Below the pieces are notes generated by a model. The model was given only the letters and a program-made list of their open reading frames with translations. It made no database searches and was not told where the DNA came from. From assembly GCF_900101395.1 (NCBI RefSeq), contig NZ_FMZO01000006.1, positions 62,001 through 126,000 of the forward strand: a stretch of 64,000 bases of DNA. The letters are read 5' to 3'. Positions 26,660 to 48,123 of the stretch are shown here, piece by piece. The position numbers were made by a program, and so were the translations under genes. Each line of letters opens with the position of its first letter. The first letter of the stretch is position 1. The stretch is from Niabella drilacis. Lineage in GTDB: Bacteria; Bacteroidota; Bacteroidia; Chitinophagales; Chitinophagaceae.

Positions 26660-29017
26660 TCAATCCGGTACAGCCGGAAGCCAGTGCTCCAGCAGATCCC
26701 TGCAATTCAGTATTTTTTCATACAGGTCTGCCGGTGTATAAAAATACTGGTTGGAGGCTTCAAAGCCCAACCTTGAATCGCTGATCTGTAAGGCGGCCAT
26801 GCGTTCTGCAAGCGCCGTTTCCTGCATCAGTAAATGTGCAAGGCGGTCTTTTATGCTCCTGCGGTCCGTGGCAGCTGCTGCCAGCCTGTCCCGGCATACG
26901 ATGAATTCGGCCTGGTTGGCGATGCTCCGGTAATGCAGGGCAATGGCTTCAATGATGTTCCGCTCCTGCAATACTGCCTGCCGCTCATTTTGTGACAATG
27001 CTGTTTTTTTAGCCGCTTCGTTCAGTTGTTGAACGATACCGGCAAAAGTATCGCCCAGCTCGCGCAATAACCGGGTAAAAACATCTGCCGGGTAGATAGA
27101 ACGCCAGCCATTGATATCATCATAAGGCAGTCCTACCATGGTGGCTTTATAACCGGTGGGAGCCTGCCACAAAAGATTGGCGGGTCCAACCTGCAACGGC
27201 GCTCCATAAACTACGCTTATATGATAAGGGAACTTACTGAACGCCTCACTGAACTGCCTCCATGCGTGGGTCATAACCGGAGCGGCGGCACCAAACCGCC
27301 TGTCCGCCACCTGCTGCACTGCATCGGCGGAGGACAGGCTTTTATCACTTCCCATTAATGCTACTACTTCCAGGTTGGGAGAAGGGTAGCCTCCAAGTGT
27401 CCAGCCCAGCATAAGCCCTGCCACGCCTTCGGTCCGAAGCCGCTCAATATGCTTCGCCACATTATACAGCGCCGGTATGTATGGTACCGCGCCTATTTCC
27501 CAGGAATTATTGGCCTGTATCTTAGCCATCGTCTTCAGTCCATGCTCCTGCGCCAGCTTCCAATGCCGCTTTGCCCGGGGACCCGGCCCTATAGCTGAGA
27601 TCGAATATTCTCCTACTTTACTTTTAATACCGCCCCGCTCAATATCCAGCTCCCACTCGCTTACACTCATTAACAGACTATCCTTTGTTATAAGTTGGGG
27701 GATGATCGCTGCCGCCCAATCATCACGCCATCCCCAGTCCCATATGATCAGTTGTGGCGGCACCGTATCTGCGGCCATGTTCCCCGCCGCTTTGGCGGCC
27801 TCGTAGCCCTTGCGGATGCCCTGGCTGTAAGTATTGTTCAAGGCAGCAATTACGGTTCCCGGGCCAGCCGGGCCACATCGGGAACATCCTTTCCCCTGCC
27901 CGTGCGACCAGCAATTGGTGGGATTTTCAGAAGCCGTGATAGAAAAAAAACCGGCGATCAGCGGCGCACGCTCCACTATTTGAGCTATGGAATCTTCCAG
28001 GTAGCGCTGTACTTCGGGGTTGCTGGTGCAAAGGGCTGTTCCCTGTCCGCGAAGTCCGGGATTTTTTTTATAAAAGGCTTCCGGTTGGTGCCGGGGCTCG
28101 TTCAGATACAGATAAATACCAATGCCGTGCGCCCGGGCACGGCTGGAAAGCTTCTGCAAATTCGCAAGCCGTTGCTCCCAGTGCTGACTGACCGAGGGGT
28201 CCCATGGGAAGGGTGTAAGCCTGCTGAGAACGATGTGCATCCAGATACTTTCCACCCCGGATGCAGCAAGCCGCTCCAGGTATGCATCGGGATAAGAATC
28301 GATCGATGTATCCAGCAACGGATCGCCAAACAGGGCAAAATAGGGATAGGTCAGCCTCGGGTTAAAACCCGCCGGAGACGGAGCCTGTCCAGGCATCTGC
28401 TCCTTTTTAAACGGCGCAGATAATTCCTTCACAAAATGAAAATACGGCATCTGCTCTTTGGGCAACCCTTTTGGGAAGGCCTGCCGTAAAAGCCGTGAAA
28501 ACCGCTGCTTGCCTTCTGCCGGAATTTCCGCTAACTGTTGATAAACAACAGGAGCACATTCGGGTTTCAGACTGCCCAGCTTGATGTAAAAAAAATCATC
28601 CTCCTTTAATGTAAAATCCATGCGTGCCTTATCCCAGCCCATCAGGGTCTGCAACTGGCTATCGGGCAGCAGGTGCCAGTTCCTGCGGATCACTGTTAAA
28701 TAACTCCGTTGCCACTGTTCATCTGTAACAGGCGGCGCCGGAGGCAGTCCCATAAACCGGGCAATCTGCCCTAATTGCTGCGGGGTGGCGTTCACCGCTG
28801 CAGCCATCCGCTCCAGGGGTACCAGCCCCCAGTTGCGCCACACAAAAGCATAAAGGGCATTGGGAAAATGCTTCAATTCGAGCGCCTTTTTGCCGGCCTG
28901 CATCCCGGCAAAAGACCAGGCCGGTATTCCCTGCAAAAACAAAAAAACACCAAGCGCCGCATTGGAAGCAAGGAACTGACGGCGGTTGATCGGGAACCGG
29001 TTACCGGGCTGTTTCAT
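26660..29017 (-). CDS. Exported protein with a TIM-barrel, glycoside-hydrolase-like region; last gene of the SusCD-linked operon
   Basis: The 785-aa protein starts with an RRQFL-type Tat-like or Sec signal (about 1-38). Residues 100-190 look like a helical module. From about 225 (YFALFGDPLLDTSIDSYPD, then SGVESIWMHIVL, HGIGIYLYLNEPRH, GFFSITASE and LIIWDWGWRDDW) the pattern of strand-acid-helix is that of a TIM-barrel hydrolase. The Glu of LNEP and of TASE are candidate catalytic residues. A C-x-x-C pair, CSRCG, follows the latter. I do not recognise a CAZy family with confidence. It closes the 16-gene run, 148 bases after the MFS gene. Confidence 0.6.
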   Translation of the reverse strand: MKQPGNRFPINRRQFLASNAALGVFLFLQGIPAWSFAGMQAGKKALELKHFPNALYAFVWRNWGLVPLERMAAAVNATPQQLGQIARFMGLPPAPPVTDEQWQRSYLTVIRRNWHLLPDSQLQTLMGWDKARMDFTLKEDDFFYIKLGSLKPECAPVVYQQLAEIPAEGKQRFSRLLRQAFPKGLPKEQMPYFHFVKELSAPFKKEQMPGQAPSPAGFNPRLTYPYFALFGDPLLDTSIDSYPDAYLERLAASGVESIWMHIVLSRLTPFPWDPSVSQHWEQRLANLQKLSSRARAHGIGIYLYLNEPRHQPEAFYKKNPGLRGQGTALCTSNPEVQRYLEDSIAQIVERAPLIAGFFSITASENPTNCWSHGQGKGCSRCGPAGPGTVIAALNNTYSQGIRKGYEAAKAAGNMAADTVPPQLIIWDWGWRDDWAAAIIPQLITKDSLLMSVSEWELDIERGGIKSKVGEYSISAIGPGPRAKRHWKLAQEHGLKTMAKIQANNSWEIGAVPYIPALYNVAKHIERLRTEGVAGLMLGWTLGGYPSPNLEVVALMGSDKSLSSADAVQQVADRRFGAAAPVMTHAWRQFSEAFSKFPYHISVVYGAPLQVGPANLLWQAPTGYKATMVGLPYDDINGWRSIYPADVFTRLLRELGDTFAGIVQQLNEAAKKTALSQNERQAVLQERNIIEAIALHYRSIANQAEFIVCRDRLAAAATDRRSIKDRLAHLLMQETALAERMAALQISDSRLGFEASNQYFYTPADLYEKILNCRDLLEHWLPAVPD

Positions 29018-29165
29018 TATTATACAGTTTAAGATATATCGTATTCATTTGCACGCAACGTTTTTGACAAAGTTAATTGGTCAGAGAGAACAAAAGCAGA
29101 TAGTATCCTGTATGCCTGCTGCCCGGACCGGGGCAGCACAGCAGCGCCCCCTCTGATGCAGCCGT

Positions 29166-30383
29166 TTACGCTTTTGTCCGGATACCCATTAAAGCCAGTG
29201 CCGCCAAAACGATCAGAAAGGCGGCCGACTGGTAAATGACGCTCAGCGATATATGGGCATCTCTTAAGGCTCCGCCAAAATACAAGGCAATACCACCGAT
29301 CAATGTTCCGCAAAAATTAAGAATCCCATACCCCGTGGCACGATACTCAGTGCCAACGATCATACTGAGTATGGGCATCGTGTTCGTATCCGTAAAGGAT
29401 TTGGTAAATGCATACACAACAAAACACCCGACAGCCACAAAAAGCAGTGACGTATAACTGGCCAAAAAAATTGCCGGAGCCGCAACACACAAGCCGATTG
29501 CAGGCACCCATATCCGCGCTCTTTTATTGACCTTACTCCATTGATCGGCCAATACACCCCCCGCAAGCACGCCAAAAATCGCTGCTGTAAAAACATAGCC
29601 CGTAGAGTAGATCCCCGCCCTGGTTTGAGACAACAGAAATTTTTCCTGGAAATAGGTAGGCAGCCAGCCTACTACCAGCCAGGCCATCAGGCTAACCAGT
29701 GCAAAGAAAATAAGCAGCAGGATATAGGACCTTTTCCTGAAAAGCAGTTTCAGGGTGGCCGGAAACCCTGTGACCGGGTTGCGCTTTTCCTTATCCCCCA
29801 TCTGCTCACGCGGAGCGTCTTTCAAAACAAACAGCAACAATACGGCATACACCATTCCAAAAATGCCAAAAGAAAAAAAAGCGGTATTCCATTGATGGTT
29901 TTCGGCGATCCATCCACCTAAGAAGCCAAGACTCTGACCCGCCATAATCCCCGCCATATGTATGCCCGTAGCCAGCGACCGGGTGCTGCCTTTGTGATAA
30001 TCCATGATCAATGCCAGTGCCGCCGGAATATAACAGGCTTCACTTAACCCCATCAGGGCTCTTGTAACCAGCAACCCCTGAAACGACGTGGCATAGGAAG
30101 TCATCCAGGTAACCAGCGACCAGATCAGCAGGCTAACCAGTATCACTTTGCTGCGGCTAAACCGGTCGGCCAGAAAGCCGGCCAATGGACTAAATAATCC
30201 ATACACCCAAAGAAAGGCTGCCGTCAACAACCCAAATTCTGCATCCGTCATCGGGATGGCATTCACAATAGAGCTGCGCATCGTAGTGATCATGGTACGA
30301 TCTATATAATTGAGCATGGCTATTATAAACAGAAGCCCCACCACCATCCAGGCTCTCGCCATCGTTTTTCCCGAACGTTCCAT
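29166..30383 (-). CDS. MFS transporter, anion:cation symporter-like
   Basis: The 405-aa protein has 12 predicted membrane helices. The first helix contains NYIDRTMI, a motif common in the hexuronate/sialate/phthalate-type (ACS) symporters, and the inter-helix 2-3 loop is GFLADRFSRSKV, the general MFS motif. The likely role is inner-membrane uptake of the compound released outside by the SusCD part of the same operon. It lies between the class III aminotransferase gene (60 bases upstream) and the exported TIM-barrel-like gene. Substrate cannot be told; an acidic sugar fits the family. Confidence 0.85.
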   Translation of the reverse strand: MERSGKTMARAWMVVGLLFIIAMLNYIDRTMITTMRSSIVNAIPMTDAEFGLLTAAFLWVYGLFSPLAGFLADRFSRSKVILVSLLIWSLVTWMTSYATSFQGLLVTRALMGLSEACYIPAALALIMDYHKGSTRSLATGIHMAGIMAGQSLGFLGGWIAENHQWNTAFFSFGIFGMVYAVLLLFVLKDAPREQMGDKEKRNPVTGFPATLKLLFRKRSYILLLIFFALVSLMAWLVVGWLPTYFQEKFLLSQTRAGIYSTGYVFTAAIFGVLAGGVLADQWSKVNKRARIWVPAIGLCVAAPAIFLASYTSLLFVAVGCFVVYAFTKSFTDTNTMPILSMIVGTEYRATGYGILNFCGTLIGGIALYFGGALRDAHISLSVIYQSAAFLIVLAALALMGIRTKA

Positions 30384-30443
30384 AACCGTATATCATTTTA
30401 ATGCTCCCGGTTTATTGCCGGAAGGCTGTTTTCAAAAATCCTG

Positions 30444-31742
30444 CTATAAAGCTGCCAGTACTTCGTTAGCCACCTGTATCGCTTCATCAATCTCTTCCTC
30501 CGTATGTACCGCGCTGATATACCAAAGGCCCCTGCCAATGATCCGGATATTCCGATCGTGCATAGCTGCAATAAACCTGCTTAACCTGGGTTTATCCGTT
30601 TTTAGCGTATCCCGGTAGTCCCTTACTTTTTCCAGATCGGTGAAGCAGCTGCTGAACACAGGTCCGGGTCCACTTAGCAATAAATTCTGGTTATGCTGAC
30701 GGGCCGCTTCCGCTAACCCCGTCATCAGCCGCTTTCCCAGTGCAAACATCCGCGGGTAAGGGTTATCCCGCTCCAATACCCGTATGGTTGACAATGCGGC
30801 TGCAATCATCGGGCAGCTGGAATTCATAGTACCTGCGTGGATCACCACTGATTGTTCGATCAGCTCCATCCACTCACGCCGGCCAACAACAGCGCTTACC
30901 GGGTAACCACTTCCCATCGCTTTTGCAAACACTGACAGGTCGGGTGTTACACCAAAATAACTTTGTGCGCCGCCCAGTCCGACCCTGAAACCGGTGATCA
31001 CCTCATCAAAGATCAGCGCAATACCGTATTGATCGCATAGTGTCCTGAGCCCCTGTAAAAAGCCCGGCTCCGGTTCAATACATCCGTTATTACACATCAC
31101 CGGCTCGGTAATGATCGCTGCTATTTCGTGGTACTGTTTTTCCAGGGTTTGCTTCACCAGGTCCAGGTCGTTCCAGGGCAATACGATGAACTCATTTCTC
31201 GTATTGGCAGCCATCCCTGCCGACCAGGGAAACACCTCCGGCTCTTCCCGGCTGCCCAGTGCTTCTACTCCCGGAGTAGAAATTCCCCAGGCCACATCAT
31301 CGAGCCAACCGTGATAATGTCCTTCAAAACGCAAAAATTTTTGCTTCCCCGTTTTCGCCCTGGCTACCCGAAAAGCAGTTTGAACGGCTGTTGACCCGTC
31401 AAGGCAGAAGCGGATCAGCTCGGCAGAAGGGATCAGCCTTGCCAGCTTCTCGGCCAGCTCAATTTCCTGGATATGCTGACCCGCATACAGTTGTCCCTGT
31501 TCTGAATAAGATTGAATGGCGTGCAGCACTTCCGGGTGCGAGTGGCCCAGGATCAAAGGTCCCTGGCTTAGTGTAAAATCCAGGTACACATTATTATCCA
31601 CATCCACAACCCTGCTTCCCTTACCATGCGAATAAAACAATGCATGCGGATGATTGTATTTCCTAAACTCCGACGATACGCCTCCGGCGAGTACCTTAGC
31701 CGCGCGATCCAATAATTGTCTTGAATACTGATACCTGCTCAT
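30444..31742 (-). CDS. Class III aminotransferase, glutamate-1-semialdehyde aminomutase-like
   Basis: The frame is open to 31805, but the start at 31742 (MSRYQYSRQLLDRAAKVLAGGVSSEFRKY) fits the GSA-aminomutase family and gives 432 aa. The PLP Lys is in FAKAMGSGYPVSAVVG (about 266), the cofactor Asp in IFDEVITGFR, and the substrate-contact segment is CLDGSTAVQTAFRVARAKTG. Heme biosynthesis does not explain its place here. It is followed by an MFS gene and preceded by an SDR and an aldo/keto reductase, so it probably acts on the operon's substrate, removing or transferring an amino group. Confidence 0.85.
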   Translation of the reverse strand: MSRYQYSRQLLDRAAKVLAGGVSSEFRKYNHPHALFYSHGKGSRVVDVDNNVYLDFTLSQGPLILGHSHPEVLHAIQSYSEQGQLYAGQHIQEIELAEKLARLIPSAELIRFCLDGSTAVQTAFRVARAKTGKQKFLRFEGHYHGWLDDVAWGISTPGVEALGSREEPEVFPWSAGMAANTRNEFIVLPWNDLDLVKQTLEKQYHEIAAIITEPVMCNNGCIEPEPGFLQGLRTLCDQYGIALIFDEVITGFRVGLGGAQSYFGVTPDLSVFAKAMGSGYPVSAVVGRREWMELIEQSVVIHAGTMNSSCPMIAAALSTIRVLERDNPYPRMFALGKRLMTGLAEAARQHNQNLLLSGPGPVFSSCFTDLEKVRDYRDTLKTDKPRLSRFIAAMHDRNIRIIGRGLWYISAVHTEEEIDEAIQVANEVLAAL

Positions 31743-31872
31743 TGCTGCTTTTTTATGATTTGTAAATCCGGTTTTTATAATAAAACATTTCCCGCTCCAT
31801 GGCACTGATCTCCATCAACACAATAATTAAAATAGTTTTTAAAATCAGGCTTTGCCTTTACCTCCATAATGA

Positions 31873-32664
31873 TCACCAGCTTGTCCATCCCCCATCCACC
31901 AACAGGTTATGGCCGGTAACAAAGGCCGAGGCATCGGATGCCAGGAAAACAACCGGTCCTTTAATATCCTCATCATTGGCGAATCGCCCCAATGGGGTCA
32001 GCTGCTTATAATTTACGCTGAACTCGGTCTCCCCAAAGGTTTCACTAACCCCTGGGCCATACCCTCCCGGGCTCAGACAGTTACAGCGGATATTGAACCT
32101 GCCGTAGTAGTTAGCGATCCATTTTGTAAACCCCACCATTGCCCATTTATCATAGGTGTAATTTACGGGGCTCGTCATCCCCGTTTCTCCATACACCGGG
32201 AAGTTTGGCCCCACCGAGCCCTGTATGGAGCCGATATTAATGATGTTACCGGCTTTGCGCCGGCACATATCTTTTAGTACTTCTTTCGTCAGTAACATTA
32301 ACCCGGTGGAGTTTACGGCCTGCGCTCCTTCCCATTCGGCCTTGCTCATTGCATCAAGGTTTTTAAACCCTTCCCGGGAAACCGCATTATTAATCAAAAC
32401 ATCCATTTTTCCAAAATCCCGGATGACCGTCGCCACAAAGCCGGTGATCGACCTTTCATCTTTCAGATCCAGCTGCAGGCCGGCAGCCTTCAAGCCCATT
32501 TCCCGCAGCTCCGCTGCATAAGCCTTGCATTCCATCAAATTCCGGGAAGCGATGATCACCTGTGCACCAGCCTGAGCCAATGCCAGTGAAATCGGTTTTC
32601 CGTAAAGGCCGGCGCCTCCTGTAACAACCGCTACCCTTCCTTCCAGACTAAAGAACTGTATCAT
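31873..32664 (-). CDS. Short-chain dehydrogenase/reductase (SDR), first of two
   Basis: The 263-aa protein has the classical SDR signatures: the nucleotide loop VVTGGAGLYGKP (about 12-23), the NNAV motif (about 91) and the active-site Tyr/Lys in NYTYDKWAMVGF (about 168-179). The glycine loop is the GGAGLYG variant seen in sugar-nucleotide-type SDRs. The C-terminus ends LVDGGWTSW. The stop of the upstream aldo/keto reductase gene is 4 bases from its start. The protein could oxidise or reduce a sugar-acid intermediate; the substrate is unknown. Confidence 0.85.
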   Translation of the reverse strand: MIQFFSLEGRVAVVTGGAGLYGKPISLALAQAGAQVIIASRNLMECKAYAAELREMGLKAAGLQLDLKDERSITGFVATVIRDFGKMDVLINNAVSREGFKNLDAMSKAEWEGAQAVNSTGLMLLTKEVLKDMCRRKAGNIINIGSIQGSVGPNFPVYGETGMTSPVNYTYDKWAMVGFTKWIANYYGRFNIRCNCLSPGGYGPGVSETFGETEFSVNYKQLTPLGRFANDEDIKGPVVFLASDASAFVTGHNLLVDGGWTSW

Positions 32665-32668
32665 ATTT

Positions 32669-33607
32669 TTATAATTTCCATGATCGGGGAATCAATACGT
32701 TTTCGGGAACTCCTTTAAAACAGGCTTTTGCTTTTTCCAGTACGTCGGCAGGAATTCGTTTACCATTCAGCAATCCGATATTCTCTTCCAATTGCTGCAG
32801 GGTTTCCGCTCCAAACACGATGCTCGTGATCCCCGGAAGATCGCGCACATAAGAGAAACAAAATCCGGCAACACTCATATCGCAGGCTTTTGCAAAGAGC
32901 GCCAATTGTTCAATAAAATAAGCGGCCGCCTTCAGATCACCGGAAAGTTCTTCCGGACGCTGTAGTAACAGCCCTTTAAGAAAAACGCTTCTTGCAAAAA
33001 TTATTTTTTCCTGTGCGGCCAGCGTTTCCCATACGGGGTCACCCATTAAACGCTGGTCCCATATATTTACAGGAACCTGCAACACTTTTATTGCGGGCAG
33101 CGCCGCGAATGTTTTGAGCTCCGTCAAATTATCCAGCGAAATACCGCCATAAGCGATCAGGCCTTCCTGTATCAGCGACTCCAGTATTCCGGGTACCACG
33201 GCACAAACAGCGTTGGGATCGTAACCGGACACCATATGAAACAGGCAAAAGGGCAACTGCCCGAGATTTAAACGGCACAGCGACTCCCTTACACTATCAA
33301 ACGCCTGCTGCTTTGCAAGCGCGGGTCTGGTAACAGCATCTGCCGTTATCTTAAACTTACTGACAATGGCCGTACCTGCGGATAGCCCGTCCGCCACCAA
33401 TGTGCCCAGCAACTGTTCGGCTATCCCATATTCTCTTGCCGTATCAAAAGATGAGATCCCATATTTTGACGCTGCCCGCAGCAGCTGCCCGGCCACACCG
33501 GTATCCGGTTGCTGCTGACCACTGAACACCCCGTAGGGTATACCCAGGGAAACGGTTCCCAGGGTCAATGCAGATATTTCAAATATCCCGATCTTTTTAT
33601 ATTTCAC
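32669..33607 (-). CDS. Aldo/keto reductase family protein
   Basis: The 312-aa protein has the AKR pattern: TLGTVSLGIPYG at the start, FDTAREYG (catalytic Asp and Tyr, about 54-61), IVSKF (catalytic Lys, about 82-86) and FHMVSGY (His, about 123). Its N-terminus and C-terminal VFGAETLQQLEENIG fit the AKR subgroup often found in surface-polysaccharide and nonulosonic-acid clusters. It overlaps the SMP-30 gene by 11 bases, indicating coupled translation, and is followed by the SDR after 4 bases. Confidence 0.85.
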   Translation of the reverse strand: MKYKKIGIFEISALTLGTVSLGIPYGVFSGQQQPDTGVAGQLLRAASKYGISSFDTAREYGIAEQLLGTLVADGLSAGTAIVSKFKITADAVTRPALAKQQAFDSVRESLCRLNLGQLPFCLFHMVSGYDPNAVCAVVPGILESLIQEGLIAYGGISLDNLTELKTFAALPAIKVLQVPVNIWDQRLMGDPVWETLAAQEKIIFARSVFLKGLLLQRPEELSGDLKAAAYFIEQLALFAKACDMSVAGFCFSYVRDLPGITSIVFGAETLQQLEENIGLLNGKRIPADVLEKAKACFKGVPENVLIPRSWKL

Positions 33608-34433
33608 TTTCTTCTTTTTTTAACAACTGTACAAAACCAGGGCCCGGCTCACCGGATCCCCCTGTAACCAGCAACAGCCCGTCTTGCAGGTATACATTAG
33701 ACGTGAGTAGAAACCCTGTTTCCAGCTTCCCCATATAGGTGCCCTGCTCATCCAGCAGCTGGATGCCGGCCATGCCATAATGCGCCACCCATAAGTTATG
33801 AAAACAATCAAAAGCCAGTCCATCCGGCAGGTTGGCCGTTGCCTTCCCCGACGCATGCCGGGGCAGATCGCAGAGAACAACAGGAGCCGGCGATGCCCGG
33901 TCCAGATCCACCACAAGGATCCTGTTTTGATAACTCTCTGCTATAAACAAGTGGTGGGTTACAGGATGCAATGCAATCCCGTTCGGATAATCAAGATACT
34001 TGGCGATGAGCCTCTTTTTTCCATGACGGTCTACATGGCCGACAATACCGGTATGCCGTACCGAATCAGTAAAAAAGAACCCGCCATCGCCATCATCAGC
34101 CAGGTCATTCGGACATCGGATCATCTGATCTCCAACTATCCCTTCTGCCAAAACACCCGAAAATTTCCCCGAAGGATCAAAGCGCTTTACACAGGCCTCA
34201 TTGCTATCACAGATCCAATGTTCCCCGTTGGCTGCAATCATCTGGCCATTGGGACAGGAGGAGCGCGCCCATTCTGCTGCATTCCCCTCCTGTGTAATAC
34301 GCAGGATCTGACCTCCCTGCAAATTGGTCACAAACAGCTCTCCGGCAGCATCCACTGCGGGGCCTTCTGTATAAAAAGGATACTGCCAAACAGTCATGGC
34401 TCCTTTAAATTCCTGGTAAGTTCCCTGTTTCAT
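33597..34433 (-). CDS. SMP-30/gluconolactonase-like six-bladed propeller protein
   Basis: The open frame extends to 34505, but the start at 34433 (MKQGTYQEFKGAMTVWQYPF) is preferred; the extra 24 residues are read from the M81 gene's 3' end. The 278-aa product has the family strands YTEGPAVDAAGELFVTNLQGG (with the metal-binding Glu), the Asn of RCPNDLADDGDGGFFFTDS, and NGIALHP and LPDGLAFDCFHNLWVAHYG, where the catalytic Asp lies. Lactonases open sugar-acid lactones. It overlaps the upstream M81 gene by 29 bases. Confidence 0.85.
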   Translation of the reverse strand: MKQGTYQEFKGAMTVWQYPFYTEGPAVDAAGELFVTNLQGGQILRITQEGNAAEWARSSCPNGQMIAANGEHWICDSNEACVKRFDPSGKFSGVLAEGIVGDQMIRCPNDLADDGDGGFFFTDSVRHTGIVGHVDRHGKKRLIAKYLDYPNGIALHPVTHHLFIAESYQNRILVVDLDRASPAPVVLCDLPRHASGKATANLPDGLAFDCFHNLWVAHYGMAGIQLLDEQGTYMGKLETGFLLTSNVYLQDGLLLVTGGSGEPGPGFVQLLKKEESEI

Positions 34434-35901: not shown

Positions 35902-35960
35902 CTGTACATTCTTTATGAATCCCAACCGGATCAGGCGGACAGGAATTCCGCACATTCTTA

Positions 35961-38254: not shown

Positions 38255-39166
38255 TTATTTATTAACCGGTAAAATGCCGCCCAGTGAATCGCCTGGGTGT
38301 ACACGGGGGTGCCTGCGCAAAAATAACACCAGGCCCGAGCTGTCTGCTGTAACGCTGCGTTGCTGCCGGAGGAGCGGATCATAAATAACACCCCATTCTT
38401 CCCCCTTCTCAACAAGCGCGCCTACCTGTACTTTCGGCAAAAAGATCCCGTCAGATGCCGACACCATTTTCCCCTGTAAGAAACCACCTCCGGGCGTAGC
38501 ATCCTCAACAGTGTATACCACCTCCGAAAGTTTTTTTTCCCTTGCCCCGGCTGTGAGCATACCCAAATGATCCAGCACGTTCAAACAACCCTCCACGCAG
38601 GCATCAACAATTGTTTCCTGCACGCTATTACCACCTCCATATTCCACGTAAACGGCGGGAACACCTGCATCCCTGGCAACGGACAAGGTTCTTCCGTCCG
38701 GTGCCGCATCCGTTCCCCAAACCAGCGGAAAATTAAAAGCGGCGGCCATCTGCCGCTGTGCATCCAGCACCTGCGGATCCGGGTGCAACAGGTAACCGCA
38801 CAACGGGAACAGATCAAATAAAGCACCGCCTGTATGCAGGTCCACCAAGTGACTGCAATTGCGGATTCGTTCAGAGAGGTCAAAGGCCGCAACTTCCGAA
38901 ACGGTTCCGGCAGGTGCCCCGGGGCAAATCCTTGCCAGGTCCAGCCCGTCTGCGCCCGTGCGACTTGCAGCGTTGTAGGCCGTTTCGTTTGCACAAGCAA
39001 TAAGGCTTACCCTGCCCTTTGCCAAAATGCCCTCCAGTTTTTGGAACAATTCCATAACTGCGATCATCGGCTCATATTCATCACCATGTACACCGGCAAC
39101 GATCAGTGCCTGCGGCCCTTCGTCATTGCCATTTAATTCTATTAAAAACTGTTGCTGGTTCTGCAT
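38255..39166 (-). CDS. M14-type deacylase, AstE/aspartoacylase family
   Basis: The 303-aa protein has the zinc-binding HGDEYEPM (His and Glu, about 25-32) and the third ligand in VDLHTGGALFD, plus the catalytic Glu in VYVEYGGGN. A C-terminal beta domain follows (from about 210), as in DoeB- and AstE-like enzymes. The family removes N-acyl groups (succinyl, acetyl, aspartoyl) from amino acids and similar compounds. Its presence in a SusCD operon suggests that the substrate carries an N-acyl or amide group. Confidence 0.85.
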   Translation of the reverse strand: MQNQQQFLIELNGNDEGPQALIVAGVHGDEYEPMIAVMELFQKLEGILAKGRVSLIACANETAYNAASRTGADGLDLARICPGAPAGTVSEVAAFDLSERIRNCSHLVDLHTGGALFDLFPLCGYLLHPDPQVLDAQRQMAAAFNFPLVWGTDAAPDGRTLSVARDAGVPAVYVEYGGGNSVQETIVDACVEGCLNVLDHLGMLTAGAREKKLSEVVYTVEDATPGGGFLQGKMVSASDGIFLPKVQVGALVEKGEEWGVIYDPLLRQQRSVTADSSGLVLFLRRHPRVHPGDSLGGILPVNK

Positions 39167-40358: not shown

Positions 40359-41306
40359 TTATTTAATGCTTCGTACCTGCTGTATTGCCGGAGTTATCTG
40401 GCTAGCAACATCTTTTATGCCCGCTGCAGCCTCAATTTTATCCGACAAAGAAAGGACTTCCTCGTCTGTCCATTCCGCCTGATTCAGCCCCAGCGGCGCC
40501 TTGGTTTGCCCGATATCAATACCGTATTTCAACCGCATTGCCTTTCTGAAAAAAGTCCAGATATTGGGCAATACATAGAGGATCGTCCTTTGAAATTCCA
40601 GCATAAAGTTTTTGGCCTGTTCAAAGTCCCCCTCTCTGAAATCCTCTAATACCTTTTTGCAGGCTACTCCCCACAAATTATAAAAGGACCCGATAGCACC
40701 GTCTGCACCACAGAGGCTGGCATGACACATCAATTCATCTGCGCCGCTGAACAACTTCAGCCGGTCGCCTGCCTGCAGATGGATCGCACTTATTTCCATG
40801 AGCTGCCCGGTGGTCAGTTTCATACCGGCTATATTAGGAATCTGCAGCAACCGTTCAATAAAGTCCGGTATATCCCCCATGGTATTATTGCCGAGCTGAT
40901 AGGGAAAAAAGGGCAGGTCCGTTACCTCCGCAATTTTTCTGTAATGTAGTAAAGCGTTGGCGACGGACCCGGAAAAATAAATGGGAGCCACCGATGATAT
41001 AGCGTTGGCGCCGCATTCAGCTGCATGTACGGCAAGCCTTACGGACTCTGCAGTAGTAAGCGCACCTACCTGAACCATTACCGGTACGCGGCCGGCCACT
41101 ACTTCCGTTACTTTTTCCAGTACGGCCTTTCGCTGTGCCTCGGTGAACAAAACCCCCTGGCCTGTTGACCCCAGGACATACAAGCCATCCTGTCCCTGAG
41201 TGACCAGCAGACGCGCCAATTTTTCCAATTGTTCCATTTCCGGCGCACCCGTACCATCTACCGGTGTAAACATGGCCGACCATAAACCTTTAAATATTTC
41301 TTTCAT
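40359..41306 (-). CDS. DapA/NanA superfamily lyase
   Basis: The start at 41306 (MKEIFKGLWSAMFTPVDG) is preferred to an ATG nine codons upstream. The 315-aa TIM-barrel protein keeps the Schiff-base Lys in IAGMKLTTGQL (about 161) and the pyruvate-binding GSTGQGVLF (about 47-55), but differs from DapA in the Tyr segment: FFPYQLGNNTMG replaces the usual IYNVP. The group includes N-acetylneuraminate lyase, dihydrodipicolinate synthase and keto-deoxy-sugar-acid aldolases. With a sialidase-like propeller beside it, a nonulosonate or related keto-acid aldolase is plausible but not shown. Confidence 0.82.
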   Translation of the reverse strand: MKEIFKGLWSAMFTPVDGTGAPEMEQLEKLARLLVTQGQDGLYVLGSTGQGVLFTEAQRKAVLEKVTEVVAGRVPVMVQVGALTTAESVRLAVHAAECGANAISSVAPIYFSGSVANALLHYRKIAEVTDLPFFPYQLGNNTMGDIPDFIERLLQIPNIAGMKLTTGQLMEISAIHLQAGDRLKLFSGADELMCHASLCGADGAIGSFYNLWGVACKKVLEDFREGDFEQAKNFMLEFQRTILYVLPNIWTFFRKAMRLKYGIDIGQTKAPLGLNQAEWTDEEVLSLSDKIEAAAGIKDVASQITPAIQQVRSIK

Positions 41307-41422
41307 ACTGAAGATTACTATTTTTAAAAACATCTGCCCATCGGCATACTATTACACATCTCCAACCCAGCCGGCTCTTCAGCCGCGGCTTTGGCTGAAC
41401 CCCGACCCTGCCGGTACGCCGG

Positions 41423-43006
41423 TCATTGAAACTGAAAGGCGTAGAGATCTGCATCTTTGAGAACAAAACGTAATTTAACGGCCTTCCCCTGCAGCGGGGA
41501 AAGATCACTGCCCTTTTTCCACTCCACCTTCCGGCTGATCGTATCCCCGAATACCGGGTAGCAATCATCCAGTGTAAAGCCTTTCACCGGCCGGTTGGTT
41601 GCTGCATCAATCACCTCCACCTGTATGCCCCCTGCCGCGGAAGTAGAAAAGTTAAGGCTGAGCGAATTCCCTTTAAAAATGATCGGCCTGGTCACCAGTT
41701 CCCCGCCGCTAAGGGGTGCATTGACAGAAACAAAGCCATCAAGCCGAAGCGTATAACGCCTCAGGTAACTCGCCCTGTCTTTCCAGTAATGTTCCGTTGC
41801 ATAAAGTGATAATTCATTGGGTGCTCCGGGGTCTGCCGCTTTTGTTTCCACCAGATGCCAGCCAATATACTGGTCTCCGTAGGTCCAGGTGCCGTTCCGC
41901 TCTATACCGGGTCTTAAAAAGGCCTCATTCCACCTTTTAAAGTTCACGCCATCCCGGCTGGCCATCAGCAGCGACTCCGTTAATGCCGTGCCATAGCGCA
42001 ACGATTTAGCAGCCCGTTTTTCCCGCTCTTCAAGCTCAGGTAAGGCTTTCATAGAAGGAGACCAACCTCTTTCAATATACCGGGCGGGAAAGCCCAGCAA
42101 TATATGTGGTGCCCGGTAGTAGGGCTTAATCTGATTGGTATACAACTCTTCTTCCGGCGAGTCTTCATATTGTATGTTCGCCTGCTCTGTCCAATGAATA
42201 AAGTCTTTTGAAACTGCGGTCCGGATCAGCCGTTTACCAATATAAGGTTTATCCGGTGTTCCCTTTGAAAAGAACCGCCAGTAGGCCCGGTATTCCTTTT
42301 TGTCAGCATCCCAGAATGCGAGGTTCTGCGAATCAAATGCCCCGTCTTTAATAATATAATCATCACTCATCAAATTCCAGTGAATCCCGTCGGCAGATTT
42401 AAAAGCTATTAATCCCTGGTCTATCAGCAATGCCTTATATTTCGCATCGGCCGGTGCATCGGGGTTATCATCTTTGAAGACTGCAGGGTGCCCGGCATTC
42501 AGGTTAAACTTCCCCATTTTGCCACTTACAAAAACAATATTATTATTCCGGGAGCCTTTGAATTCATACAGCCCAAGATCAGGTTTTGTCCAGTGGATTC
42601 CGTCTTCACTTTCTGCATAGGCGCAGTACAACGGATGCGCGGTCGTCAGGTCGCTGCTTGCCTCATGTTGCCAGGCTTTGTAATACATCTTATACTTATC
42701 GCCATCTTTAAAGATACTGTGATAGCCGCTGCCACTGCCCTCCCACGGCTGATCATGTATCATCACGATTTCCCTGGGCTGCGGGTGATGCAATACGATC
42801 TTCCCTCCACCGGTCAGTCTGTCAATAAGATACCCATCCACAAATAGCTCCAGCCTTGACCCAATATTTACAGGAGGGACGGGCTTCTCTTTTGTGACCG
42901 GGTCACCAGGTACAGCGGTCCCTGCCCGGGCACCTTCAGTTACAAGTCCTGCACAAAAAAAGACCGCAACAAAATAAACGGTTGTTCGTAAAAAGAAGTT
43001 GTTCAT
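41423..43006 (-). CDS. Exported five-bladed propeller protein (GH32/GH43-superfamily-like)
   Basis: The 527-aa protein has an N-terminal membrane/signal segment (about 8-28). The body shows repeats ending in GIHW, IHW or similar (YAESEDGIHWTKPDLGLYEF, KSADGIHWNL, VSKDFIHWTEQ, MASRDGVNFKRW), as in the five-bladed furanosidase-type propellers. A C-terminal beta-sandwich (about 425-525) follows. Catalytic acids are not assigned. It follows susD after 47 bases and should act in the periplasm or at the cell surface on the imported or attached substrate. Confidence 0.6.
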   Translation of the reverse strand: MNNFFLRTTVYFVAVFFCAGLVTEGARAGTAVPGDPVTKEKPVPPVNIGSRLELFVDGYLIDRLTGGGKIVLHHPQPREIVMIHDQPWEGSGSGYHSIFKDGDKYKMYYKAWQHEASSDLTTAHPLYCAYAESEDGIHWTKPDLGLYEFKGSRNNNIVFVSGKMGKFNLNAGHPAVFKDDNPDAPADAKYKALLIDQGLIAFKSADGIHWNLMSDDYIIKDGAFDSQNLAFWDADKKEYRAYWRFFSKGTPDKPYIGKRLIRTAVSKDFIHWTEQANIQYEDSPEEELYTNQIKPYYRAPHILLGFPARYIERGWSPSMKALPELEEREKRAAKSLRYGTALTESLLMASRDGVNFKRWNEAFLRPGIERNGTWTYGDQYIGWHLVETKAADPGAPNELSLYATEHYWKDRASYLRRYTLRLDGFVSVNAPLSGGELVTRPIIFKGNSLSLNFSTSAAGGIQVEVIDAATNRPVKGFTLDDCYPVFGDTISRKVEWKKGSDLSPLQGKAVKLRFVLKDADLYAFQFQ

Positions 43007-43053
43007 TTACTATTCACTTTTATTAGGATTTCTAAATCAATTTACAAATACTT

Positions 43054-44832
43054 TCACGGATGGTCCCAGCCTGCATTTTGCTGAAGGTTGGGATTGATCA
43101 GTAATTCATTATAGGGTATGGGAGCAAAATATTTATAGTCATCAAATTGACGGACCATATTCGCCTGCCAGAGTATGCGGCCATGATCACCCAATGACAA
43201 CTTCGTTGTTTTATTATCAATAACGAAATAATAGACCCCGGCCACAGGATTGGCGGGATTGGCCGCAACAAACGACACGTCTGCTTTCCCGTCCTCGTTG
43301 AGATCATACAGCTTATTCATTTCCGGAACATACATACCATCCTTTTCCTTTTCCAGGAGCTTAGCTGCCTTCCAGCGCTTCAGGTCATCGTACCGGAACC
43401 CTTCTGCTACCAGCTCTATAGCGCGTTCTCGCCGGATCTCCATCACCGGAACAGAATTGATATCCGTATAAAAATTATCTTTCAGGTAGCCGTCTACGGT
43501 AGCCGGCATCGCCGTATTGGTAATACCCGCCCGCTGTCTTAGTAATGCAATAGTCTTATTCCAGTCGCCCCCGGTCAAATCGCCCGCTTCCGCTTTTGCT
43601 TCGGCGTAGTTCAATAACACTTCCGCATACCGGATGATCGGGATTGAATTATAACCCTGCCCGTTAAGATCATATGCCTTATCATCAATTGAAAACTTGA
43701 GGATCTGATAGCCGGTATAGGCCGCTCCCAGATAAGGAGCGGCGGCGCTTCCATCTGTCCGTTTGTACCCGGGAGTCCTGATTGTTTGTGCGAGCCGGGC
43801 ATCCCTGCCTTTTACTTCCCCCGAAAACCGGATCGTATCAAAACCGGGTTTATCCGTAAACGGTGTGCCGTCAATATTCAGATACGTATTCATAAACCGC
43901 TTGATCAGCACGGGCTGATACTGGCCATAGTCCGAGAAGAACCCTGTTACGTTATTCCATTTTTTTAAATTGTTGTTATAAACAGCGGCCAGCATTACCT
44001 CCGCGCTTACAGGATTTTCACTGATAAAAAGGCTCCGGTAATCCTTTGCAGGGTTATTGGAAGATACCAGGCTGTATAAATTGCTGTTCATGATTTCCGC
44101 GGCGGCATCTGCGGCATCTTTAAGCCAGGCATTGGCTGATGCGGCAAGTCCCAGTTCCGGATGGTATTTTCTAAACGTACCTTCAAACAAACAGATCCGG
44201 GACTTCAGGGCCAATGCAACCCACTTGGTTATGTTGGATGCGCTGTTGTCCTTTTTATCACTGATCGTTTGAACAGCTCCGTTGATATCGGCGAGAACAG
44301 AATCCATTACCAGAGTCCGGGGATCTGCTTTTTTATAGAGAAGGGAATCGCCCGACGTAAGTACTTTCCCGTACCAGGGTACGTTTCCGAACCGTTTCAC
44401 TTTATCAAAATAAAACCAGGCGCGGAAAAATCTTGCGATCCCTCCAAAATGCTCCTTCCGCGCATCCGGAACAGGAGCCGCCCTGTAGTGTTCAAGAAAA
44501 TAGTTGATATTCCTGAGGTTGCCCCAATCCCATCCCTGCGCAACTTTACTGGTGTAACCGCCGGTAAGGTACGGCAGGTTTTGACTCCAGGCAGTCACAT
44601 CGCTCATGATATCGCCACTGATATAATAATCTTCCAGTGTGCCGGCATTGGCTCCGGTTATTTTTAACGCATTGGGCAACATCTGGTAAAATGAATTGAC
44701 GTATAGTTGTAAATTCTGCTCAGATGAAAAGGCCTGGGAAGGTGTTAAAGAATCAACAGGATTTTTATCCAGCACTTTTTTGCAGGCGCCCAATAAAAAA
44801 CAAAAGGCAATAATAAAAGTTAAATGTCTCAT
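43054..44832 (-). CDS. SusD/RagB-family nutrient-binding lipoprotein
   Basis: The 592-aa protein starts with a lipoprotein signal whose Cys is in LLGACKKVLDK (about 17). The N-terminal region has NPVDSLTPSQAFSSEQNLQLY and TPR-like helices; the C-terminal signature is MEIRRERAIELVAEGFRYDDLKRWKAAK, the RagB/SusD family hallmark. It caps the SusC pore on the cell surface and helps capture the substrate. It lies 21 bases after susC. Confidence 0.95.
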   Translation of the reverse strand: MRHLTFIIAFCFLLGACKKVLDKNPVDSLTPSQAFSSEQNLQLYVNSFYQMLPNALKITGANAGTLEDYYISGDIMSDVTAWSQNLPYLTGGYTSKVAQGWDWGNLRNINYFLEHYRAAPVPDARKEHFGGIARFFRAWFYFDKVKRFGNVPWYGKVLTSGDSLLYKKADPRTLVMDSVLADINGAVQTISDKKDNSASNITKWVALALKSRICLFEGTFRKYHPELGLAASANAWLKDAADAAAEIMNSNLYSLVSSNNPAKDYRSLFISENPVSAEVMLAAVYNNNLKKWNNVTGFFSDYGQYQPVLIKRFMNTYLNIDGTPFTDKPGFDTIRFSGEVKGRDARLAQTIRTPGYKRTDGSAAAPYLGAAYTGYQILKFSIDDKAYDLNGQGYNSIPIIRYAEVLLNYAEAKAEAGDLTGGDWNKTIALLRQRAGITNTAMPATVDGYLKDNFYTDINSVPVMEIRRERAIELVAEGFRYDDLKRWKAAKLLEKEKDGMYVPEMNKLYDLNEDGKADVSFVAANPANPVAGVYYFVIDNKTTKLSLGDHGRILWQANMVRQFDDYKYFAPIPYNELLINPNLQQNAGWDHP

Positions 44833-44853
44833 ACATTTCTTTTTAGTTGTTCA

Positions 44854-47800
44854 TTACAAGCCGATATTAATTCCGAATGTATAGGTCTTCAATATCGGAT
44901 AAGCATTACCATCTGTGCTGGCCTGAACCGGGCTGATCAGCTCGGGATCGATATTACCATTGATCCTGGACATGGGTGTATAGGTCCAGATGTTTTCTCC
45001 AGACAAATAAACCTGTACGTTCTCCAGCCGGGCTTTCCGGAGGAGCGCCTTCGGAAGGGAATATCCAACCGTTAAATTTTTCAAACGTATATAGCTGGCA
45101 TTTTGAAGATATCTGGTTTGCGGCTGCAATTCCCTTTCACCATAGGGCATAGGGCCTCTGTACCGGGGCCAGTACGAATTGGGATCATTTCCGTTCAGCG
45201 TCCAGTTATTCTTCAGGGTTGCCGCTGGAATGGTTCCATACCAAACAGAATACTGCCCCCAGAATTCCGTAGCACCGTAGGAGGGGTACCAATCTCTTTT
45301 GCCAATGCCCTGGAAGAATGCCGATAAAAACAACTGGTTCCAGTCAACATTGGTTGTGATCCCATAACTATACCGGGGTGTGGAATTTCCGATAATGCTC
45401 CAGTCGCCATGATCCTTCAGCGTACCGAGTCCTTTATTGATCTTGCCATCGTTATTCAGATCTTTGAATTTAATATCCCCCGGCAATACTTTATTCCCGG
45501 ATGAAACAATTACAGCGCTCTGATCGGCGTGATTTGCAATATCCTCCTCGGAAGCAAAAAGGCCCTCAGTTGTATATCCCCAGATATCGCCAACCCGCTG
45601 CCCTACATAATAGTTGGTAATAAAAGTGTTGGGATCCGGTGCAAGCAGTCCTGTGGGATTATTATACTTTGTTATATAGGAAACATTATCGGCCAGCGTT
45701 AAACGGATCATATAATTAACGGGTTTGGCCGTCCTGATCTGGTCGCTCCAGGCAACAGACAGTTCAAAGCCGGTGGTCTTCAGATCGGCATAGTTTCCCC
45801 TGGGTGCGCCGGCCCCGAATACCGCAGGCAATACAGGGCCAATAGTGATCATATCCGTAGTCATACGCCGGTACCAGTCAAAAGACCCCGACAATCTTCT
45901 TTTAAGCATTTCGATATCCATTCCAAAATCCGTTGTGGTCGATTTTTCCCACGTAAAATTATCTGCAAGAACGGCGGGGTTGGTAATATATGCAGGGTAC
46001 AATCCCGAAATAACTACCGGGGAAAGCCTTGCTTTTAGCTGTTCTACATACAGGTAAGGATCAATCTGGCTATTACCAAGAGCGCCATAGGAAACCCTGA
46101 ACTTCAGGTTATCCAGCCATGCGCTGGACCCTTTCATGAAGCGTTCCTCCGTAACTCTCCACCCTGCAGATATGGAAGGGAAAAAGCCAAACTGCTGCGA
46201 CGCCGGGAATTTCGAAGATCCGTCATAACGCCCGTTCAACTCCAGCAGGTATTTGCCCGCAAAGCTGTAATTAATCCGCGAGAACACACCTGATGTGGCC
46301 CATTCATTTCCTCCGCCCGTAAGCTGGATATTCTGGCCGGCAGCAAGGTTAAAGTCTGTCAGGTCCGGTACCAGTAAGTTATCGCGGTACACAAAAAGGT
46401 TTTTCAGCTGGCTGATTTCGGTGTTGGTACCCACCATGATCTTGAAATCATTCTTTCCAAAGGACTGACTAAAATCTGTATAAAGATTATAGGCGGTATA
46501 GGTTGTCTTTTGCTGCGTATTCGACATTGCAGAAGTGCCCAGTGTAAGGATCTCGCCGGGTTTTACGCTGTAGGGAACCACTACACTCTTATTGATCACA
46601 TCCGAAGTCGTTTGCTGATGGGAGAAATCGCCCCGGATGGACCATTTATTTTTTATCAGTGTGGCGATAAAAGAGATATTATTCCGCACAAAAGAGCTGT
46701 TGGTTTCGGCTTTGGCGCCCCCGATCATTTGCCCCAGGCTACCGGCAGCAGTCCGGGTAAGGGATCCGTCAGGATTATATAACATCGCCATAGGAACAAT
46801 ATAACCGCCTACGTTCAATGTGTTCCAGATATTCCCGTTATTAAATGGATCTGTATACTGGTAATTTGAAAAATCATTATTCGTATTGATCCGCAGCCAA
46901 TCGGTTGCCTGAACACCTCCTTTTACCCGCAGATTATACTTATGATATTGATCGCCCCTGATCCTGTATAATCCACCCTGGCCGTAGTAATTACCGGAAA
47001 CAGCATAATCCACTTTATCGGTTCCGCCGGACACGCTGACGGCATGCTGGGTGGAAGGAATGGACGATGCATACAGTTCATTAAACCAGTCGGTATTTCC
47101 ATAATACATATAGTTACCTGTTGCCGGATCTGTACTCACATCGGGCAGAGCCCCCGGATGCTGGGAACGGTAAAGCAGGGAATCCAGGTAGCTGGAGGAA
47201 AACAGAAGACCGCTGCCACCTATTGTTGAAGGCAGGGTTGTATAATCCGTCCAGGAGGTATAGGACTCTTTGAACATTTTTGCCCATAAGTAGCCTTCGG
47301 TGACCATTTTTTGTTTGATCGTCCGCTCCGCATGTGAATAGCTGCCGGAATAATGAATCTTCGGCCTGGACTTACTTGCTGTTTTTGTGGTGATCAGTAC
47401 TACTCCAAAAGCGCCCCTGGAACCATATATGGCAGCCGAGGCGGCGTCCTTCAGCACGGTAACGCTGGCGATGTCGTTCGGATTCAAAAACAGGGGATCG
47501 CCTACAACCCCGTCTATCAATACCAGGGCGCTTCCTCCTGCCCCAATGGATGTAAGCCCGCGGATATTATAGGCGGGATTAGCAGTAGGCCGTCCATCCT
47601 TGTACCCAATGTTAAGATTGGGGATCGCACCCTGGAGTGACCGGGAGGCGTTGGGAACCGGCCGGTTCTCAAAATACCGGCTATCTACCTGTTCTACTGC
47701 TCCTGTAAGATTGATCTTTTTCTGCCGGCCATACCCCACCACTACTACATCTTCCAGCTCCTGGGATTCTCGCTGCAGTGTTATATCGATTACAGACCTT

Positions 47801-48123
47801 CCGCCTGCTACTATCTCCGTAGCAGCATAGCCAACACCGGAGACCAGCAATACAGGATCAGCCGAGCCTGGCACTATGGCGTACCGGCCTGCATTATCTG
47901 TAACTGCACCCGTTTGCGTGCCTTTTATTATAATGGAAATACCGGACAATGGTTCCTGAGCGCTGTTCCTGACCGTACCTTTTATTTCCCCCGTATTCTG
48001 ACCATAAAAGCAGTTAGAACACAAGAGAAATACGGTCTGGATCAGAAAGACCCTGATAAACGCCTTACGGCCCGGGCGCTGGAACCGGCGCCGCAACACC
48101 CTAAATGCAGACAAGCTTCTCAT
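44854..48123 (-). CDS. SusC/RagA-family TonB-dependent outer membrane transporter
   Basis: The 1089-aa protein has a signal region, then a CarboxypepD_reg-like domain (about 47-120) and the TonB box-like LEDVVVVGYG. The plug follows (NLTGAVEQVDS, then NIRGLTSIGAGGSALVLIDG), and the 22-strand barrel ends FGINIGL. No N-terminal STN domain is present, so signalling through an anti-sigma factor is unlikely; control by the divergent GntR regulator fits better. It is the first gene of the 16-gene run. Confidence 0.95.
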   Translation of the reverse strand: MRSLSAFRVLRRRFQRPGRKAFIRVFLIQTVFLLCSNCFYGQNTGEIKGTVRNSAQEPLSGISIIIKGTQTGAVTDNAGRYAIVPGSADPVLLVSGVGYAATEIVAGGRSVIDITLQRESQELEDVVVVGYGRQKKINLTGAVEQVDSRYFENRPVPNASRSLQGAIPNLNIGYKDGRPTANPAYNIRGLTSIGAGGSALVLIDGVVGDPLFLNPNDIASVTVLKDAASAAIYGSRGAFGVVLITTKTASKSRPKIHYSGSYSHAERTIKQKMVTEGYLWAKMFKESYTSWTDYTTLPSTIGGSGLLFSSSYLDSLLYRSQHPGALPDVSTDPATGNYMYYGNTDWFNELYASSIPSTQHAVSVSGGTDKVDYAVSGNYYGQGGLYRIRGDQYHKYNLRVKGGVQATDWLRINTNNDFSNYQYTDPFNNGNIWNTLNVGGYIVPMAMLYNPDGSLTRTAAGSLGQMIGGAKAETNSSFVRNNISFIATLIKNKWSIRGDFSHQQTTSDVINKSVVVPYSVKPGEILTLGTSAMSNTQQKTTYTAYNLYTDFSQSFGKNDFKIMVGTNTEISQLKNLFVYRDNLLVPDLTDFNLAAGQNIQLTGGGNEWATSGVFSRINYSFAGKYLLELNGRYDGSSKFPASQQFGFFPSISAGWRVTEERFMKGSSAWLDNLKFRVSYGALGNSQIDPYLYVEQLKARLSPVVISGLYPAYITNPAVLADNFTWEKSTTTDFGMDIEMLKRRLSGSFDWYRRMTTDMITIGPVLPAVFGAGAPRGNYADLKTTGFELSVAWSDQIRTAKPVNYMIRLTLADNVSYITKYNNPTGLLAPDPNTFITNYYVGQRVGDIWGYTTEGLFASEEDIANHADQSAVIVSSGNKVLPGDIKFKDLNNDGKINKGLGTLKDHGDWSIIGNSTPRYSYGITTNVDWNQLFLSAFFQGIGKRDWYPSYGATEFWGQYSVWYGTIPAATLKNNWTLNGNDPNSYWPRYRGPMPYGERELQPQTRYLQNASYIRLKNLTVGYSLPKALLRKARLENVQVYLSGENIWTYTPMSRINGNIDPELISPVQASTDGNAYPILKTYTFGINIGL

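Follow-up and report, generated by a model that had tools for sequence, protein, structure and literature searches.

A sixteen-gene operon of Niabella drilacis with a candidate oxidative, kinase-free route for nonulosonate catabolism

The window analysed here, a stretch of 64,000 nucleotides of the 6.1-Mb Niabella drilacis genome (contig NZ_FMZO01000006.1, positions 62,001 to 126,000; G000:C30:62001-126000 in our numbering), carries between positions 26660 and 48123 a run of 16 consecutive minus-strand open reading frames (ORFs), from susC through to the gene for a 785-aa exported protein, designated g1 to g16 (Table 1). An initial annotation of the same DNA had described these 16 genes, and the ORF listing of the window agreed with it. 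Intergenic gaps range from -101 to 89 nt, with the exception of 148 nt preceding g16, and part of the overlaps is attributed to ORF starts that were called too long; in an alignment of M81 proteins, seven other sequences begin at or near residue 19 of the g10 ORF. Pfam and NCBIfam searches confirmed the families that had been named, that is SusC, SusD, a DHDPS/NAL-type lyase, BNR_2, AstE_AspA, two short-chain dehydrogenases/reductases (SDRs), PALP, RidA (Ribonuc_L-PSP), M81/MlrC, SGL, an aldo/keto reductase (AKR), a class-III aminotransferase and a major facilitator superfamily (MFS) transporter. No fold was established for g3, the AlphaFold model of which was unusable (pLDDT 37.5), or for g16, for which a TIM barrel had been suggested initially; the sole match of g16 was to DUF4838 at E=0.0056, its 16.3 bits falling short of the cut-off of 26.6. 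The SusC and SusD genes are adjacent, the hallmark of a polysaccharide utilisation locus, and the divergent GntR/FCD gene, although outside the span described initially, is counted here into the system. Counts of promoter-like and terminator-like patterns at 29000-48500 showed no excess over shuffled sequence. Very probably, as the comparisons below suggest, these genes form a conserved locus for the utilisation of nonulosonates (sialic-type acids).

Table 1. Genes and putative operator sites of the GntR-susC system, listed from the regulator to the 3' end of the operon (window coordinates).
Feature	Position	Strand	Basis or remark
GntR/FCD regulator, divergent	48463..49176	+	nearest NCBIfam model NanR, under cut-off; 24.6% identity to E. 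coli NanR
Putative GntR operator, perfect palindrome TATGTATTACATA	48166..48178	.	sole perfect site in window and assembled genome
Weaker operator-like site, 2 mismatches	48228..48240	.	motif scan
Weaker operator-like site, 2 mismatches	48396..48408	.	motif scan
g1 SusC, TonB-dependent outer-membrane importer	44854..48123	-	TIGR04056, 790.6 bits
g2 SusD-like surface lipoprotein	43054..44832	-	PF07980; NanU model 41.2 bits, far under cut-off 425
g3 exported protein, 527 aa, no family, accessory	41423..43006	-	no Pfam match at 0.001; GH32N at E=0.16 only
g4 N-acetylneuraminate lyase (NAL)-type lyase	40359..41333	-	best PDB matches NALs; NanA contact residues kept
g5 exported sialidase-type propeller	39170..40339	-	BNR_2; AlphaFold model resembles sialidases; GH33 residues aligned
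g6 M14 AstE/DoeB-type N-deacylase	38255..39166	-	PF24827; PDB matches; conserved HGDE(Y/F)E
g7 SDR 1, candidate N-acylmannosamine 1-dehydrogenase	37433..38248	-	Pfam/NCBIfam SDR; beside AstE and PALP in 28/30 core loci
g8 fold-type II PLP enzyme, threonine synthase/dehydratase-like	36345..37436	-	PF00291; ThrC-like NCBIfam
g9 RidA enamine/imine deaminase family	35961..36341	-	PF01042
g10 M81/MlrC-type putative metallo-amidase	34405..35955	-	PF07364; conserved motifs
g11 SMP-30/gluconolactonase-type lactonase	33597..34505	-	PF08450; true start probably further downstream
g12 AKR	32669..33607	-	PF00248
g13 SDR 2, gluconate 5-dehydrogenase/KduD-like, under cut-offs	31873..32664	-	Pfam/NCBIfam
g14 class-III aminotransferase, GSAM/GntE-like, under cut-offs, optional	30444..31805	-	in 15/30 core loci
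g15 MFS importer, organic-acid type	29166..30383	-	PF07690; TIGR00893 under cut-off
g16 exported protein, 785 aa, no family, not conserved with cluster	26660..29017	-	0/8 family regions, 0/80 named loci

The g10 M81 protein, searched against 294 genomes of the same family, matched in 10, the window genome included; one match (G203, 29% identity) proved to be a distant paralogue with none of the other window genes in its region. When the window proteins were compared by tblastn with the regions of the remaining eight genomes, AstE, SDR1, PALP, RidA, M81 and SGL were co-located in all eight, the presence of M81 here and in the named loci described below being by construction, as it was the bait of both searches. 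A lyase of the g4 type was found in seven of the eight (at least 53.9% identity), as were BNR (best matches 27-72%) and SDR2, with the MFS gene in six, AKR and GntR homologues in five each (the latter within the fetched regions) and the aminotransferase in four (at least 65% identity). SusC matches of 25-33% identity occurred in five, the window SusD (g2) matched in none of the eight regions, and four other SusD-family proteins were detected by Pfam in or beside the regions (G030, G123, G028 and G237, the last in a neighbouring lyase locus). The initial annotation had proposed checking whether a block of M14, PLP, RidA and M81 genes travels with the lyase and SusCD genes: the block and, in seven of the eight, the lyase do so, whereas SusCD occurs in some of the relatives, in divergent form. 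In one relative (G123) an 8.6-kb insertion separates PALP from RidA. AstE and SDR1 are each in two pieces on contig C35 of G211 (L022:3574-5141), through a frameshift or an assembly error, and in G277, of the same genus as the window genome, a sulfatase gene lies upstream of susC (L017:15600-17324), hinting at sulfated glycans.

Because M81 had served as bait, the searches were repeated with AstE and PALP. The AstE search matched in 12 of the 294 family genomes and gave 10 orthologues (at least 46% identity), nine of them in the genomes with an M81 orthologue; the tenth, from G242, shares a contig of 4.4 kb with g3 and the start of SDR1. Across 395 genomes of the phylum each search hit the window genome and the same single other, in which the two genes are 0.85 kb apart, and orthologues of either gene alone were found in none of them at E 1e-50 and 1e-60, in a sample that held this one carrier besides the window genome.

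A wider set (the named loci) was made up of loci with an M81 alignment, the best 80 out of 98 that had been confirmed, and overlapped in part with the family genomes; several of these loci are short, and the absence of a gene from them is no proof. The core of AstE, SDR1 and PALP was present in 30 of the 80, as neighbouring hits in 28 of the 30, and these core loci also carried RidA (27), SGL (25), a lyase of at least 40% identity (21) and NANM (19, symporter fusion not counted). At least one nonulosonate marker (lyase of at least 40% identity, NANM or BNR) occurred in 28 of the 30 core loci vs three of the 50 others (p=6e-16), and in those three some of the core genes or of the genes flanking them are present; a looser marker set, in which the fusion query caught plain symporters and distant DHDPS proteins were counted, gave 29/30 vs 6/50. 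By record titles, 25 of the core loci belong to Bacteroidota and five to Verrucomicrobiota, Planctomycetota and Acidobacteriota (L077, L085, L088, L108, L110). Homologues of g3 were found in two of the eight family relatives and two of the 80 named loci, and of g16 in neither set (Table 1); being rare or lacking in the relatives' clusters, both are regarded as accessories.

The full core was missing from 50 of the 80 M81 loci, in some merely through short contigs, and M81 is also at work in other settings. The concern raised initially, that the middle genes might be found mostly away from the cluster, thus applies to M81 but, in the genomes searched, not to AstE and PALP. One such M81 neighbourhood (L062:5670-21237, Pfam) contains a bile-acid-type symporter, a gamma-glutamyltranspeptidase, a RidA-like protein, an amidohydrolase, a cytochrome c/GSDH protein and an aminotransferase; gene sizes are similar in L047, L048, L054 and L066, the Pfam run having covered L062 only.

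Genes in or adjoining the relatives' clusters point to the type of substrate, and include NANM, a NANM-sodium-symporter fusion, SGNH esterases, RraA-like genes and pyruvate phosphate dikinase (PPDK), with a neuraminidase bearing BNR_assoc_N in the neighbouring locus of G237. The initial annotation had suggested an N-acylated acidic amino sugar, possibly a nonulosonic acid, and NANM, its fusion, the BNR proteins and the SGNH esterases of the relatives, together with the g4 contact residues described below, back that suggestion. The fusion, of a NANM mutarotase with a sodium:solute symporter, was seen by Pfam in the G256 copy (L018:9512-12043), and matches in L038, L057, L064, L069, L072 and L104 are possible relatives of it. 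RraA-like genes occur in 11 of the 30 core loci and are nearly exclusive with the aminotransferase (14 with the aminotransferase alone vs 10 with RraA alone, one with both, five with neither; p=0.0017, confounded by phylogeny); the two are perhaps alternative ends of the route, or a lineage effect.

The best PDB sequence matches of g4 were neuraminate lyases, and its alignment with E. coli NanA keeps the positions of Lys165, Ser47, Thr48, Gly189, Asp191, Glu192 and Ser208, which in the excerpted structural account contact pyruvate and N-acetylmannosamine (ManNAc) or an analogue, Glu192 contacting the C8/C9 diol (PMC3014015). For g5, the AlphaFold model (pLDDT 78, pTM 0.79) predicts a sialidase fold, and the Foldseek matches listed were mostly sialidases, after a Dyadobacter protein of unknown function. 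GH33 sialidases combine a six-bladed fold with an Arg triad, an Asp, a Glu and a Tyr; E239, R255, R317 and Y348 of g5 align with GH33 proteins at what we take to be the catalytic positions, while the first Arg (R59) and the Asp (D87) were assigned from invariance alone, outside the GH33 alignment.

Among the catabolic enzymes, the PDB matches of g6 include N-acetyl-L-2,4-diaminobutyrate deacetylase, and its HGDE(Y/F)E motif is kept in all eight relatives; a DLH[TS]GG pattern was present in three of the eight (one being a fragment) and nothing was drawn from it. Also kept in all eight are the GSYKDR and AGGGG motifs of g8, the PALP family of which belongs to fold-type II, and the P-A-R-T residues of the RidA protein g9, while DPHAN and NPHxDQR of g10 are invariant in the eight aligned M81 sequences, window included. 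PDB sequence searches with g7 and g13 returned general SDRs only among the best 60 matches and the search with the AKR g12 gave no match at 1e-8, so that a ManNAc dehydrogenase was not tellable by sequence.

The intergenic stretch between susC and the GntR gene holds TATGTATTACATA and two weaker copies, the perfect copy, unique in the assembled genome, lying upstream of this operon. The corresponding motif, TATGTANTACATA, had 19 sites with at most one mismatch vs 0.7 expected, in 13 of 14 chosen loci (the window, the eight family regions and five of the seven named loci with a GntR hit), the expectation coming from 10 Markov-simulated sequences per locus and the motif having been derived from the window and its relatives and then counted there again. 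In the window alone, sites with at most two mismatches were not exceptional (five vs 2.1 expected; 8 of 100 shuffles reached five). Outside the window, 16 of 18 sites lie between ORFs and two inside a called ORF near its start, most of the intergenic sites being located in front of susC, in the gap that separates GntR from the first gene, or before the second part of a split cluster, where the operator precedes RidA in G123, the aminotransferase in G277 and SDR1 in G256. This distribution speaks against the two halves being unrelated units, a possibility raised with the initial annotation: in relatives the halves resemble one regulon, and the operon is plausibly under one promoter.

Gene content suggests a route, of which we infer the reactions and their order, the precise substrate, and what M81, the aminotransferase and the AKR do. 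SusCD would import a glycan or sugar, the g5 propeller would free the acid, and g15 would move it into the cytoplasm, where g4 would cleave it to pyruvate and N-acylmannosamine. Oxidation of C1 to the lactone may then fall to one of the SDRs, g7 or g13, or to the AKR, and the SMP-30-type g11 would open the lactone to N-acylmannosaminate; g6 would strip the acyl group, g8 would dehydrate the resulting mannosaminate, and g9 may assist enamine/imine hydrolysis to 2-keto-3-deoxygluconate (KDG) and ammonia. KDG could continue via an aldolase (RraA-like in some relatives) or via a kinase and KDPG aldolase encoded elsewhere in the genome; KDPG-aldolase-family genes are present in all 10 carriers. The initial annotation offered no chemistry joining the nitrogen-handling enzymes to the lyase, and its interpretation, otherwise upheld in part, gains one from this oxidative 2-acylamino-aldonate route. 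On the sequence evidence we lean slightly towards a GntR-controlled nonulosonate locus that encodes its own downstream route, oxidative and without a kinase. The chances are about even for the fuller proposal of a third, kinase-free type of sialic-type catabolism, in which N-acylmannosaminate would be handled as an N-acetyl-L-beta-hydroxy amino acid and broken down to KDG, across Bacteroidota and with fewer, divergent copies in Verrucomicrobiota, Planctomycetota and Acidobacteriota, by L-handed enzyme families mirroring the D-handed ong pathway.

The deacylase and PLP families of the operon are known mainly for L substrates. By our CIP assignment, glucosaminate is (2R), a D-amino acid, and mannosaminate (2S), an L-type beta-hydroxy amino acid, so L-type enzyme families would fit the proposed substrate. 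As excerpted, the account of the ong pathway of Pseudoalteromonas prydzensis, which acts on oxidised chitin (GlcNAc1A), has N-acetylglucosaminate deacetylated by a D-aminoacylase-type enzyme and then deaminated to KDG by a fold-type III PLP enzyme, with a RidA-family gene of the cluster essential for growth (PMC9537276). The route proposed here would share with ong TonB-dependent import, a RidA-family gene and a path to KDG in which a 2-acetamido-aldonate is deacetylated and then deaminated by a PLP enzyme, with no phosphorylation beforehand. Besides the two enzyme types just named, ong differs in its gluco (2R) substrate, a KdgK encoded within the cluster and a regulator of the RpiR type; the present operon has a GntR regulator, an AstE/DoeB-type deacylase and a PLP enzyme of fold-type II, and a lyase and dehydrogenase/lactonase would act ahead of these two enzymes in the route. 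The same excerpt states that catabolism of amino sugars, ManNAc included, starts by phosphorylation (PMC9537276), and by that statement a kinase-free route would be new. The initial annotation knew of no described locus with this gene set, and likewise no account of an oxidative nonulosonate route was found in a literature search that covered mostly non-subscription journals and was judged largely by titles and abstract openings.

Sialic-acid loci of Bacteroidota combine a lyase with an AGE-type epimerase and a kinase. The operon resembles them in SusCD-type import, a sialidase-type protein, a neuraminate-type lyase and an MFS gene, with a mutarotase in relatives, and differs in having oxidative enzymes in place of epimerase and kinase; import in those loci is by NanOU, according to the excerpted source (PMC3969230). 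With the E. coli nan operon it shares a lyase (31% identity) and a GntR/FCD regulator (25%). Among the 16 proteins there was no match to NanE, none to NanK by BLAST or to NanT at E 0.01 (the threshold for NanK also), and no kinase family.

Several observations weigh against the proposed route. The lyase g4 falls under the NCBIfam NanA equivalog cut-offs (175 bits vs 281, 149 vs 382), and the curated cut-offs for NanA, NanR, NanU and DoeB were all missed. NANM is not in the window's own operon, the G123 region gave no g4 match by tblastn, the M81 search of the G242 genome gave no match although AstE is present, and of the five core loci from outside Bacteroidota three have weak markers (28-31%) and two have none. 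M81 and the aminotransferase fit no clear step and the AKR no firm one; the operon holds no KDG kinase or evident KDG aldolase, KDG kinase not having been sought in the genomes. The stereochemical argument, too, is suggestive only, because fold-type II also contains D-specific enzymes.

The same side of the balance holds the other lyase loci. An orthologue of another, conventional-type neuraminate lyase (at least 57% identity) is present in six of the 10 carriers vs 42 of 284 other family genomes (p=0.0018), and five of the six have it 4-7 kb away from the gene of an AGE-family epimerase and accompanied by an MFS gene, four also having NANM; propellers of these loci are 28-100% identical to the G237 neuraminidase. 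Niabella aurantiaca DSM 17617, in which a relative of the present cluster occurs, likewise has a lyase of the other type (75% identity). The operon may therefore be redundant, or be used for a different nonulosonate. A second nonulosonate-type locus (L153, G000:C30:146000-165900) is found in the window genome at about 151.5-164.7 kb of the contig, some 25-39 kb past the window end. It comprises GntR/FCD, SusCD and MFS genes, two BNR_2 proteins, NANM, a lyase of the DHDPS family with 44% identity to the other-type lyase, and a PKD/laminin-G protein that matches a sialidase N-domain below threshold; a one-mismatch operator sits between its susC and GntR genes. Its fetched stretch contains none of the downstream enzymes of the present operon, so that the present operon might supply the final steps for both loci, or else act on another nonulosonate. 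Within the window, an S9/DPP-IV-type peptidase gene (24147-26402, plus strand) adjoins the operon at its 3' end in convergent orientation.

If another nonulosonate is the substrate, it could be a di-N-acylated bacterial one of the legionaminic type, the locus type being the same; AstE and M81 would then remove the first and second acyl groups respectively, and the second amino group would be taken off by the aminotransferase. The operon's pair of putative amidohydrolases and its aminotransferase suit this alternative, M81 being plausibly an amidase because it adjoins the gamma-glutamyltranspeptidase in L062, and the five carriers with a separate lyase locus and AGE-family gene would leave this operon free for another sugar. 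It is nevertheless unlikely: legionaminate has no C9 hydroxyl, whereas g4 keeps the equivalent of the NanA Glu192 diol contact; the aminotransferase is in just half of the core loci; and the RraA-like genes would better suit a 4-hydroxy keto acid.

More doubtful still is conventional sialic-acid catabolism, in which the ManNAc released by g4 would pass to an epimerase and kinase encoded elsewhere and the nitrogen enzymes would belong to unrelated amino-acid metabolism that happens to share the promoter. AGE-family genes do exceed the cut-off in nine of the 10 carriers, and the other-type lyases are common (48 of 294 family genomes at the same identity threshold). Yet NanE exceeded its cut-off in none of the 10 carriers (one weak sub-threshold match, in G123) vs six of 14 controls, the AGE family of the window genome is confined to another contig (C25), near weak SusCD matches, with none in the operon, and the AstE-SDR-PALP-RidA-SGL block co-occurs with nonulosonate genes, AstE and PALP orthologues never standing alone in the phylum sample.

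Catabolism of an N-acyl amino acid, an ectoine-like compound or a sugar-amino-acid conjugate, with the lyase a different DHDPS-family enzyme, is highly improbable: AstE resembles DoeB/EutE and PALP threonine synthases/dehydratases, a DoeB/EutE deacetylase being likewise paired with a threonine-dehydratase-like protein in hydroxyectoine loci, as excerpted (PMC5924519), but the DoeB and EutB equivalog cut-offs were missed (88.5 vs 402.7 and 68 vs 413.35 bits), as were those of NanA, no ectoine hydrolase was reported among the 16 proteins by Pfam or NCBIfam, the operon having glycan-uptake and sialidase-type genes instead, the sialidase-type propellers, the NANM genes and the kept NAL contacts run counter to such a substrate, and no support was found for the conjugate that the initial annotation had offered as its other option.

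Were the oxidative route from nonulosonate to KDG correct, uncharacterised M14, M81, PALP, SGL and SDR genes would gain steps in a pathway, and the (2R) and (2S) routes would form a natural mirror-image pair for the catabolism of amino-sugar acids. Counts of nanE, the measure taken by at least one large metagenomic survey of sialic-acid use, which names it a possible limitation (PMC10570557), would miss a nanE-free oxidative route, and estimates of environmental nonulosonate consumers would shift. The operon would then represent a new branch in the bacterial use of sialic-acid-like sugars, one in which the sugar is treated like an amino acid.

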